A DNA stretch of 64,000 bases from Klenkia brasiliensis. Its GTDB lineage: Bacteria; Actinomycetota; Actinomycetes; Mycobacteriales; Geodermatophilaceae. Positions 29,461-33,462 of this stretch are shown one piece after another. A model generated the notes under the pieces. That model made no database searches. It saw nothing but the letters and a program-made list of their open reading frames with translations, and had not been told where the DNA came from. A program made the translations under genes and the position numbers. The stretch is from contig NZ_FNCF01000004.1 of assembly GCF_900100695.1 (NCBI RefSeq), positions 310,001 through 374,000 on the forward strand. The letters are read 5' to 3'. The stretch's first letter is position 1; every line of letters starts with the position of its first letter.

Positions 29461-30390
29461 ATGCAGCTGCGCGTGTTCACCGAGCCCCAGCAGGGCGCCA
29501 CCTACGACGACCTGCTGGCCGTCGCCCGGCGGGCCGAGGAGACCGGCTTCGACGCCTTCTTCCGCTCCGACCACTACCTGGCCATGGGCGGGGACGGCCT
29601 GCCCGGCCCCACCGACGCCTGGCTGACCCTCGCCGGGCTGGCCCGGGAGACCAGCCGCATCCGGCTGGGCACGCTCATGACCGCGGGCACCTTCCGGCTG
29701 CCCGGGCCGCTGGCGATCGCGGTGGCCCAGGTCGACCAGATGAGCGGCGGCCGGGTGGAGCTCGGCCTGGGGTCGGGGTGGTTCGAGGCCGAGCACACCG
29801 CCTACGGCATCCCGTTCCCCCCGCTGGGGGAGCGCTTCGACCGCTACGCCGAGCAGCTGGAGGTCATCACCGGGCTGTGGTCGACGCCGGCGGGGGAGAC
29901 CTTCTCCTTCACCGGCGAGCACTACACGCTCACCGATTCCCCGGCGTTGCCCAAGCCGGTGCAGGACGGCGGCATCCCGGTGCTGGTCGGTGGCCGCGGC
30001 GCGAAGCGCACGCCGGCGCTGGCCGCCCGCCACGCCACCGAGTTCAACACGCCGTTCGCCTCGGCCGAGGACGCCGCGGGCCTGTTCGACCGGGTCCGGG
30101 CCGCCTGCGCCGACGTCGGCCGCGACCCGGCCACGATGACCTTCAGCTCCGCGCTGGTGCTGTGCGTCGGGGGCACCGACGCGGAGCTGGCCCGCCGGGC
30201 GGCGGCGATCGGGCGGGACGTCGAGGAGCTGGTGACCAACGGGGTGGCCGGGTCACCCGCGCAGGCGGTGGACACCCTGGGCCGGTTCGCCGAGGCGGGC
30301 GCGACCCGGGTGTACCTGCAGGTGCTCGACCTGGCCGACCTGGACCACCTGGACCTGGTCGCGTCCCAGGTGGCTCCGCAGCTGGGGTGA
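29461..30390 (+). CDS. LLM-class F420-dependent oxidoreductase
   Basis: The 309-aa TIM barrel belongs to the luciferase-like superfamily in its F420-using branch (start MQLRVFTEPQQGATYDDLL, then GFDAFFRSDHYL, RLGTLMTAGTFRLPGPLAIAV, GRVELGLGSGWFEAEHTAYG, and VLVGGRGAKRTPALAARHA near the cofactor phosphate site). It would use F420H2, which npdG (9323-10030) can supply. The substrate is unknown. CAGCCT lies 7 nt before the ATG, a weak leaderless promoter. It is followed by the leuS leader. Confidence 0.87.
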   Translation: MQLRVFTEPQQGATYDDLLAVARRAEETGFDAFFRSDHYLAMGGDGLPGPTDAWLTLAGLARETSRIRLGTLMTAGTFRLPGPLAIAVAQVDQMSGGRVELGLGSGWFEAEHTAYGIPFPPLGERFDRYAEQLEVITGLWSTPAGETFSFTGEHYTLTDSPALPKPVQDGGIPVLVGGRGAKRTPALAARHATEFNTPFASAEDAAGLFDRVRAACADVGRDPATMTFSSALVLCVGGTDAELARRAAAIGRDVEELVTNGVAGSPAQAVDTLGRFAEAGATRVYLQVLDLADLDHLDLVASQVAPQLG

Positions 30391-30470
30391 CCGACGGCGC
30401 CGGGCGGGCACGCGGGCCCGCCCGGCCGACGAGGTGCGTTCCCGGTACGGATCCGGCCGGGGGTGCGGGG

Positions 30471-30476
30471 TAACCT
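30471..30476 (+). promoter_or_regulatory. -10 element TAACCT of the leuS leader transcript
   Basis: TAACCT ends 6 nt before the GTG of the leader peptide at 30483, so transcription would start at the leader start codon. No good -35 hexamer is visible. Confidence 0.5.
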
Positions 30477-30482
30477 CGCCCC

Positions 30483-30518
30483 GTGACCGGTGGCCTGCTC
30501 CTTCCGAGGCCGTGCTGA
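30483..30518 (+). CDS. leuS leader peptide ([11 protein letters not shown])
   Basis: A GTG-initiated 11-codon ORF ending TGA at 30516-30518 contains three consecutive leucine codons CTG-CTC-CTT at 30495-30503; CTT is rare in this genome. It appears leaderless (TAACCT 6 nt upstream). The first arm of the downstream hairpin begins 6 nt after the last Leu codon and overlaps the stop codon. This is the classical layout of an attenuation leader peptide: slow decoding of Leu codons when charged tRNA-Leu is scarce would change folding of the following RNA and raise leuS expression. Confidence 0.72.
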
Positions 30519-30569
30519 CCAGCTCCCCGCACGTCAGCACGGCGACCCCTCCTGCGTGAGGGGTTTTTT
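30509..30569 (+). promoter_or_regulatory. Leucine attenuator of leuS (protector, antiterminator, terminator)
   Basis: Three competing helices are visible. Protector: 30509-30519 with 30533-30543, a perfect 11-bp stem. Terminator: 30545-30551 with 30558-30564, a perfect 7-bp stem, loop of 6, then six T (30564-30569). Antiterminator: CCCCGCACG (30525-30533) with CGTGAGGGG (30555-30563), 8 pairs and one mismatch, using the protector loop and the terminator 3' arm. A ribosome stalled on the Leu codons would block the protector and free the antiterminator. Coordinates are exact from sequence; the mechanism is inferred from the layout. Confidence 0.75.
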
Positions 30570-30609
30570 CATGCCCACCCACCGGCAGCGACACCCAGGA
30601 GCCACGACG

Positions 30610-33462
30610 ATGAGCGAGACCGTCCCCCCGCACCGGTACACCCCGGAGCTGGCCCAGCAGATCGAGCTGGCCTGGCAGGACCGGTGGGAGGCCGAGGGCA
30701 CCTTCGCCACGCCCAACCCCACCGGCACGCTCAGCGAGGGCTTCGACCGCGTCGCCGACCGGCCCAAGGCCTTCCTGATGGACATGTTCCCCTACCCCTC
30801 GGGGGCCGGGCTGCACGTCGGGCACCCGCTGGGCTACCTGGGCACCGACGTGACCAGCCGGTTCCTGCGCATGGACGGCCACAACGTGCTGCACCCGATG
30901 GGCTACGACGCCTTCGGCCTGCCCGCCGAGCAGTACGCCGTGCAGACCGGCCAGCACCCGCGGGTGACCACCGAGGCCAACATCGCCGCCATCTCCGCGC
31001 AGCTGCGCCGGCTGGGTGTCGACCACGACCGCCGCCGCACCTTCGCCACCATCGACCCGGGCTACTACCGGTGGACCCAGTGGATCTTCACCCAGATCTT
31101 CGGGGCCTGGTTCGACGACGTCGCCGGCAGGGCCCGCCCGGTCGAGGAGCTGGTGGCCGAGCTGGACGCCGGTACCCGGCAGCCCGCGCCCGGCACGCTG
31201 CCCGAGGGCCGCGACTGGGCGTCCCTGGACGCGGTCGAGCGGCGCCGCGTCGTGGACGCGCACCGGCTGGCCTACCTGAACCAGGCGCCGGTGAACTGGT
31301 GCCCCGGCCTGGGCACCGTGCTGAGCAACGAGGAGGTCACCGCCGACGGCCGCTCCGAGCGCGGCAACTTCCCCGTCTTCCGGCGTCCGCTGACCCAGTG
31401 GATGATGCGGATCACCGCCTACTCCGAGCGGCTGCTGGCCGACCTGGACCGGCTGGACTGGTCGGACTCGCTGAAGCAGATGCAGCGCAACTGGATCGGC
31501 CGCTCGACCGGCGCGCGGATCCGGTTCGGTGACATCGAGGTGTTCACCACCCGGCCCGACACCCTGTTCGGCGCCACCTACCTGGTGCTGGCCCCCGAGC
31601 ACCCCCTGGTCTCCTCGCTGACGGCCGCCGCGTGGCCCGACGGCACCGACCCGCGGTGGACCGGCGGGGCAGCCACCCCGGCGGAGGCGGTCGCGGCCTA
31701 CCAGCTGCAGGCCTCCCGCCGCAGCGAGCTGGACCGTCAGGCCGAGGGCCGGGAGAAGACCGGTGTGTGGACCGGGGCGCACGCCACCAACCCCCTGACC
31801 GGCCGCGAGCTGCCCGTGTTCGTCGCCGACTACGTGCTGACCGGCTACGGCACCGGCGCGATCATGGCCGTGCCGGGTGAGGACACCCGCGACTTCGAGT
31901 TCGCCGACGTGTTCGGCCTGCCCGTCGTGCGCACCGTGCAGCCGCCGGAGGGCTTCGAGGGCGGCGCGTACACCGGTGCCGGCCCGATGATCAACAGCTC
32001 CAACGAGCACGTGCAGCTGGACGGGCTGGACAAGGCCGCGGCGATCGCGACCGTCACCGAGTGGCTGGTCGCCCACGGGCACGGCGAGTCGACCACCACC
32101 TACAAGCTGCGCGACTGGCTGTTCAGCCGGCAGCGCTACTGGGGCGAGCCGTTCCCGGTCGTCTACGCCGTCGACGGCCCGGACGCCGACCTGCCGGTCG
32201 CCGTCCCCGCCGACCAGCTGCCGGTGCTGCTGCCCGACGTCGACGACTACTCGCCGAAGACCTTCGCCGACGACGACGCGACGTCCTCCCCGGAGCCGCC
32301 GCTGTCGCGGGCCACCGAGTGGACGACGGTCGAGCTGGACCTGGGCGACGGGCCGCGCCGCTACCGCCGGGAGACCAACACGATGCCCAACTGGGCCGGG
32401 TCGTGCTGGTACTACCTGCGCTACCTGGACCCGGGCAACGACGAGCGGTTCGTCGACCCGGAGCTGGAGGCCTACTGGATGGGCCCGCGCGCGGAGGGCG
32501 ACGTCGGCGGCGTCGACCTGTACGTGGGCGGCGTGGAGCACGCGGTGCTGCACCTGCTGTACGCCCGCTTCTGGCACAAGGTGCTGTTCGACCTGGGCCA
32601 CGTCTCCTCCGAGGAGCCCTTCCGCCGGCTGGTCAACCAGGGCTACATCTCCGCCTACGCCTACACCGACGCGCGGGGCTTCTACGTGCCCGCCGCCGAG
32701 GTGGTGGAGAAGGACGGCGCGTTCTTCTTCGAGGGGCAGCCGGTCAACCGCGAGTACGGCAAGATCGGCAAGAGCCTGAAGAACATGGTGACCCCCGACG
32801 AGATGATCGGGGCCTACGGCGCGGACACCTTCCGGGTGTACGAGATGTCCACCGGGCCGCTGGAGCAGTCCCGGCCGTGGGAGACCAAGGCGGTCGTGGG
32901 GTCGCAGCGGCTGCTGCAGCGGATCTGGCGCGTGGTGGTCGACGAGGAGACCGGTGAGGTGCGCGCCGCCGACACCGAGCCCTCCGCCGACACGCTGAAG
33001 GTGCTGCACCGGGCGGTCGACGGCGTGCGCGACGGCATGACCACGCTGCGGTTCAACATCGCCATCGCGCGCACCACCGAGCTGACCAACCACCTGACCC
33101 AGGTGTACGGGCAGTCCGGGCCGGTGCCGCGGCAGGTGGCCGAGTGGCTGACCCTGCTGGTCGCGCCGCTGGCCCCGCACCTGGCCGAGGAGCTGTGGTC
33201 GCGGCTGGGGCACGAGGGTTCCGTGGCGTGGGCGCCGTTCCCGGTGGCCGACCCGGCCCACCTGGTCGACGACACCGTGCAGATCGCGGTGCAGGTCAAC
33301 GGCAAGGTGCGGGCCCAGCTGGACGTGCCGGCCGACGCCGACGCCGCCGCGCTGGAGGCCGCCGCGCTGGCCGACGCCCGGATCGCCGAGCTGCTGACCG
33401 GGAAGACCGTGCGCAAGGTGGTCGCGGTGCCCGGCCGCCTGGTCAACGTCGTCGCGACCTGA
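30610..33462 (+). CDS. leuS: Leucyl-tRNA synthetase
   Basis: A 950-aa class I synthetase that charges tRNA-Leu. The HIGH motif is HVGH at residues 69-72 ([17 protein letters not shown]) and the KMSKS motif is KIGKS at 718-722; the CP1 editing domain ([20 protein letters not shown]) and a C-terminal tRNA-binding domain ([16 protein letters not shown]) are intact. The frame is open to 30490, but that part contains the attenuator; ATG 30610 has CAGGAG about 8 nt upstream. Expression is probably controlled by the leader at 30483-30569. Confidence 0.96.

Follow-up and report, generated by a model that had tools for sequence, protein, structure and literature searches.

Attenuators in front of leuS, the gene for leucyl-tRNA synthetase, were predicted as classical ones in Streptomyces avermitilis and Streptomyces coelicolor in 2005, in a paper whose accessible text also draws an antiterminator for Streptomyces leuS and itself sets these attenuators against the T-boxes of Firmicutes (PMC1262725). 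In 2021, RNA-seq of Streptomyces lividans TK24 brought to light leuL2 (MRAVRLLLSEPR), which the available part of the report describes as a leaderless reading frame of 12 codons, three of them for Leu, followed by a hairpin and a uridine stretch before leuS (PMC8079986). In the leader of the enterobacterial leu operon, the control codons are rare Leu codons (CUA), and placing CUG there lowered sensitivity; it is presented as an accepted idea that a leader can be sharpened by rare control codons, with the caution that codon rarity alone is not the rule (PMC1183508, accessible text).

The element described here lies in a stretch of 64 kb, the whole of which we call the window. Like the predicted Streptomyces leuS attenuators, at least as outlined in the accessible text (PMC1262725), it has a Leu-codon leader ORF and a terminator before leuS, and it has in common with leuL2 the Leu leader, here putatively leaderless, the hairpin and the T/U run (PMC8079986, available part). 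It differs from the Streptomyces leaders of the MRAVRLLLSEPR type in its peptide and in belonging to another bacterial family; moreover, leuL2 was established from RNA-seq together with sequence, whereas the element of the window is known from sequence. The accessible text on the predicted attenuators names the two Streptomyces species and gives no wider distribution, codon constraint or register, and the available part on leuL2 describes no Leu response. The enterobacterial leu leader, likened by description, is alike in principle, but it governs biosynthesis rather than leuS, and its codon and structures differ. T-box riboswitches likewise control aminoacyl-tRNA synthetase genes by tRNA charging, but the window has a leader ORF in place of a T-box. 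Judging by these features, we take the element to be a real leuS attenuator of an already known kind, found in another family than Streptomyces. The first-pass annotation of this DNA had remarked that T-boxes are more usual for an aminoacyl-tRNA synthetase; the kind is nevertheless not new, given the predictions of 2005 (PMC1262725, accessible text). A T-box or other known RNA family was considered and rejected: across the whole window nothing scored at or above the gathering threshold of any Rfam family, and T-box was absent among the five chance-level matches at E<=5.

Leader, hairpins and leuS in the window

The coordinates that had been assigned to the leader, its Leu codons, the hairpin and the terminator agree with a base-by-base re-reading. 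The features are as follows.

30471..30476, + strand: -10 box TAACCT, ending 6 nt before the leader GTG and pointing to a leaderless transcript
30483..30518, + strand: leader ORF, with GTG start, 11 codons and TGA stop
30495..30503, + strand: adjacent Leu triplet CTG CTC CTT, from the re-read sequence
30501..30503, + strand: probable control codon CTT, read by tRNA-Leu(GAG), ending 5 nt before the hairpin
30509..30519, + strand: hairpin 1 arm 1, GCCGTGCTGAC, overlapping the stop codon (fold and compensatory changes)
30525..30533, + strand: 5' side of the antiterminator proposed in the first-pass annotation, partner 30555-30563, in near relatives only
30533..30543, + strand: hairpin 1 arm 2, GTCAGCACGGC (fold and compensatory changes)
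30538..30541, + strand: CACG of arm 2, which could pair with CGTG of the terminator loop (30555-30558) as a weak alternative antiterminator
30545..30551, + strand: terminator 5' arm ACCCCTC (terminator scan and compensatory changes)
30555..30563, + strand: 3' side of the antiterminator proposed in the first-pass annotation, partner 30525-30533
30558..30564, + strand: terminator 3' arm GAGGGGT (terminator scan and compensatory changes)
30564..30569, + strand: terminator T6 tail TTTTTT, the first T belonging to the stem too
30597..30601, + strand: leuS Shine-Dalgarno sequence AGGAG, by inspection
30610..33462, + strand: leuS, leucyl-tRNA synthetase, ATG start at 30610 (TIGR00396)

The leader reads GTG ACC GGT GGC CTG CTC CTT CCG AGG CCG TGC TGA (30483-30518). 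Hairpin 1 consists of 11 perfect pairs between 30509-30519 and 30533-30543, and 1 nt separates it from the terminator. The minimum-energy fold of 30483-30575 comprises exactly both hairpins, at -43 kcal/mol (z -2.86; none of 200 shuffles equally low). An intrinsic terminator is present between the leader and leuS: a scan of 29900-30800 recovered it with two overlapping matches, against 0.1 expected. The gene downstream scores 852.6 bits with TIGR00396 (cut-off 548.4), and leader, hairpin and terminator are conserved together, which bears out the earlier placement of an attenuator unit in front of leuS. An alternative leuS start at the in-frame ATG 30571 was discarded, as many relatives, judged by eye, have CTG or other letters at that position.

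The first-pass annotation had also called the leader leaderless, and the -10 spacing agrees with this. TAACCT ends 6 nt before the GTG; among 75 leaders from across the class, 71 have a -10 box of the form TANNNT at 4-9 nt ahead of the start codon, where the background rate is 0.0017 (0.17%). From this spacing we infer that the transcript is leaderless and starts at or beside the GTG. A promoter search of 29900-30800 under a strict rule gave 0 matches to a sigma-70-like -35 element upstream.

To gauge chance, we scanned for TANNNT followed by an RTG-started ORF that has three or more Leu codons in a row and is closely followed by a terminator. This pattern of leader and terminator occurs a single time in the 64 kb, counting both strands. 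In a set of 60 first-order Markov sequences, the mean count was 0.067 for the ORF alone and 0 for the ORF with terminator. The combination of ORF and terminator is thus not expected by chance in 64 kb.

Conservation and the position of the probable control codon

We compared the regions upstream of leuS from the best 80 of 578 loci and from 31 of the 111 genomes of the family in which leuS was matched; the family we take, from named relatives, to be Geodermatophilaceae. With L001, L002 and L044 left out as window duplicates or for lack of an N-terminus, 110 loci were usable. Within this set (best 80 of 578 plus 31 family genomes), an automatic rule asking for a leaderless ORF in which two or more Leu codons stand side by side retrieved a leader at 99 of the 110 loci (93 distinct leaders), and one further leader-bearing locus, L068, has a slightly longer gap, so that a Leu-run leader precedes leuS in 100 of these 110 actinobacterial loci. 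Where LeuS is more than 80% identical, leader and peptide pattern are found in 50 of 50 loci of the same set, which amount to 44 distinct leaders, some genomes being counted in both collections. The element is absent from 10 of the 110 loci of this set (three Actinomycetospora, two Pseudonocardia, two Aeromicrobium, Mobilicoccus, Quadrisphaera and a Microthrix MAG). Being common to close relatives and to many actinobacteria, the conserved Leu leader with its hairpin and terminator is very probably a real leucine sensor.

Both hairpins covary. In a class alignment of 94 leaders, which was fitted to a covariance model and therefore leans towards structure, 99.1% of cells are paired, and two-sided compensatory changes occur at 11 of 16 base pairs. 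Two-sided cells number 109, versus 28.1 +- 4.3 in shuffled alignments (0 of 500 as high); sliding the partners gives no more than 10. MAFFT alignments agree, with 99.6% of cells paired over the 44 close leaders and 97.4% over 45 leaders. The terminator stem is nearly constant in the 44 close leaders, so support there comes mainly from hairpin 1. The conservation among relatives that the first-pass annotation had named as a check is seen for the Leu runs and as compensatory changes in both hairpins, but not for the antiterminator stem.

As a separate observation, six of the seven pairs of the terminator stem CCCCTC/GAGGGG (30545-30564) never vary in the 44 close leaders, a near-invariance that exceeds the needs of a plain terminator.

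For codon usage and register we assembled 166 leaders, namely 73 from class matches and the 93 distinct rule-found ones; left out were L184 (contig-end offset), L237-L240, which precede other genes, and L214 and L227, in which no terminator could be parsed. The third Leu codon is CTT in 152, CTC in 13, TTC in one and CTG in none, versus CTG in 45 of 166 at position 1 and in 72 of 166 at position 2. The Leu codons of 72 LeuS genes are CTG in 90.9%, CTC in 6.8% and CTT in 0.9% of cases, and the window's own leuS has 81 CTG, one CTC and 0 CTT. By the established decoding rules, tRNA-Leu(GAG) reads CTT and CTC; the tRNA-Leu genes of the window's genome carry anticodons CAG, GAG, TAG and TAA. The register is also fixed: the spacer from the third Leu codon to arm 1 is 5 nt in 162 of 166 leaders, while the length of loop 1 varies between 6 and 49 nt. 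Where a TAG stop comes early (e.g., L026 and L036), the distance of the hairpin is fixed to CTT and not to the stop.

A ribosome covers about 12 nt downstream of the codon it holds, according to the accessible text of PMC4833913. With the 5-nt spacing and this footprint, the placement of the probable control codon would let a stalled ribosome mask arm 1: on CTT it reaches 30515 and masks 7 of the 11 arm-1 bases, and on the first Leu codon it reaches only 30509. The constraint on the third Leu codon alone would follow, because only a CTT-held ribosome reaches well into arm 1. The earlier proposal that stalling on the Leu codons covers the first arm thus holds for CTT (30501-30503) but not for any Leu codon. 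These data suggest that CTT is the sensing codon, acting via tRNA-Leu(GAG), and the fixed CTT/CTC codon offers a sharp and cheap test of selective tRNA charging outside enterobacteria. In the literature searched, from which subscription papers were mostly outside reach, we found no report of the codon constraint or the class-wide distribution. Work by Lopatovskaya et al. in 2010 on attenuation of aminoacyl-tRNA operons may already cover more leuS leaders.

The Leu run, the codon bias and the register are left unexplained if the leader ORF boosts leuS translation by reinitiation, a hypothesis put forward in PMC4833913, or if the terminator simply serves the upstream gene. Leader genes are common in Actinobacteria, as the accessible text of the same paper has it, and a gene for an F420-dependent oxidoreductase does end at 30390 on the same strand. 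Reinitiation, however, wants a short distance, and the leader stop lies 91 nt before the leuS ATG with the terminator between them; a plain upstream terminator would trail one particular gene, yet the matches precede leuS. We consider both of these readings very improbable.

Possible routes from stalling to read-through

We put the probability at roughly 0.8 that the element is a ribosome-mediated transcription attenuator through which leuS expression tracks the charging of tRNA-Leu. At the level of sequence, the leader, the -10 spacing, the register, the compensatory changes in both hairpins, the codon constraint and the link to leuS all speak for it. RNA polymerase would start at or near the GTG, and a ribosome would load immediately on the leaderless transcript. 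With ample Leu-tRNA, the ribosome would complete the 11 codons and depart, hairpin 1 and then the abutting terminator would form, and transcription would end before leuS. With charged Leu-tRNA scarce, it would pause at CTT, covering some seven arm-1 bases; hairpin 1 would then fail to form properly and arm 2 would be left free beside the terminator. Such stalling would raise read-through. Three things might prevent the terminator: freed arm 2 could pair with its loop, a pairing particular to the lineage could form, like the one in the first-pass annotation, or the support of hairpin 1 could be lost.

A classical attenuator requires a structure that excludes the terminator once hairpin 1 is blocked. 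With arm 1 masked, the terminator still stands in the minimum-energy fold of 89 of 93 leaders; folds that exclude its 5' arm are less stable by a mean of 6.4 kcal/mol, and by 3.0 in the window. The antiterminator proposed in the first-pass annotation joins 30525-30533, in loop 1, to 30555-30563, in the loop and 3' arm of the terminator. This pairing is present in the window, with eight pairs and one G.A mismatch. When arm 1 is masked, the fold that uses it, extended by CAG/CTG, is nearly competitive, lying just 3.0 kcal/mol above the terminator fold. Its conservation falls short, however: the full match CCCCGCACG/CGTGAGGGG occurs in four of eight same-genus leaders, and 62.4% of cells are paired over the 44 close leaders, against 99.6% for hairpin and terminator. 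Class-wide, 9 of 100 shuffles are as good for loop 1 with the terminator 3' arm, and the mean z is positive (worse than shuffled) in many families. We regard this version as improbable.

A competing hairpin between the freed arm 2 and the terminator loop (CACG 30538-30541 with CGTG 30555-30558) is a possible route that we put forward tentatively. Just as tentatively, this pairing may form before the 3' arm exits the polymerase, holding the 5' arm in its loop. Over the 44 close leaders, 96.8% of its cells are paired, with three two-sided changes; over 39 leaders the figure is 96.2%, with 0 of 500 shuffles as high, and native loops beat shuffled ones (1 of 300 as good). Across the 94 class leaders, however, the 88.9% of paired cells hardly differs from 88.6% after shuffling (199 of 500 as high), and there is no covariation. 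Native pairs did no better than those obtained by exchanging loops between leaders (-5.92 versus -6.06 +- 0.14), some second-hairpin loops being misassigned in that run. Where the loops have diverged, 20 of 300 shuffles do equally well, a second register anti-covaries, and the window itself offers only 4 bp.

Hairpin 1 lies 0-1 nt from the terminator in 155 of 162 leaders (119 with 0 and 36 with 1; four rows with fewer than eight paired arm positions were left out), despite a freely varying loop 1. This adjacency, and the lack of any alternative pairing conserved class-wide, would suit a composite terminator without antiterminator, in which the abutting hairpin 1 helps by stacking or by blocking other RNA pairing and a CTT-stalled ribosome weakens termination by removing it. 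The adjacency is also expected, however, if arm 2 must reach the terminator loop quickly, and the terminator, which has a good T run, is already stable by itself, at -11.5 kcal/mol in the window; we hold the composite terminator to be a doubtful explanation. Because no alternative pairing extends class-wide and hairpin 1 generally abuts the terminator, we retain ribosome-mediated attenuation as the class of mechanism without one assigned antiterminator. To call the attenuator complete, as was done at first, is too strong, since no antiterminator passes the class-wide test. The lack of a conserved antiterminator makes a textbook assumption about attenuators directly testable. In S. coelicolor, according to the accessible text of PMC1262725, mutations of regulatory codons in the ilvB leader changed nothing, and the behaviour of leuA was not that of a classical attenuator, from which it follows that an attenuator-like look is not proof.

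Distribution across the class and a leader with Ile codons

A covariance model was built from 39 leaders that included both Geodermatophilaceae and Streptomyces; it fits the leaders of both groups, a fit that is not independent there as training rows came from each. At E<=0.01 it matched 165 of 394 sampled class genomes, in 77 of 138 genera; the regulator that the 2005 paper foresaw for two Streptomyces species is thus widespread in the class. At E<=1e-7, 138 genomes were matched (table count), the other 27 of the 165 being weaker. We retrieved 80 class matches, mainly non-Streptomyces, and 30 loci (L131-L160) stayed outside the later analysis. LeuS is encoded downstream of 75 of the 80; of the remaining five, one contig is too short and four matches precede other genes, all weaker than 1e-7. 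Two of these weak matches (L238 and L240) are leaders before acetolactate synthase that resemble known ilvB leaders, and two (L237 and L239) precede citramalate synthase-like genes.

The downstream LeuS is less than 58% identical in 49 of the 75 cases, and mostly near 35%. The bacterial leuS model, for which per-member scores were seen, matches every one of the 49, with a best E of 3.4e-100 versus 7.8e-38 for the best valS model. One type of leader therefore serves two widely divergent kinds of LeuS. A single genome (G320; L165 and L166) apparently has a pair of divergent leuS genes, each preceded by a copy of the attenuator; over the matched pieces they are 46% and 73% identical to that of the window.

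A broader reading would have a class-wide leuS sensor without conserved antiterminator, in which a ribosome awaiting scarce tRNA-Leu(GAG) at the fixed CTT/CTC dissolves the hairpin that supports the terminator, with the same leader serving two divergent LeuS and the layout reused with Ile codons before citramalate synthase. Taken as a whole, we find this unlikely.

A leader with Ile codons was observed in the window's own genome. On contig C8 (L304:1362-1394), a short ORF, MHTTGTIIIT, has three Ile codons (ATC ATC ATC) and is followed by an abutting hairpin and terminator and then by a citramalate synthase gene (TIGR00977, 549 bits). A literature search on this leader returned only an unrelated paper. 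In 10 of 10 readable close genomes of family f19 (loci L284-L293), the homologue follows a similar leader of the (V)PSQxIIIxRRAG type, 10 further loci lying outside the motif used. The spacer between the last Ile codon and the hairpin again appears to be 5 nt.
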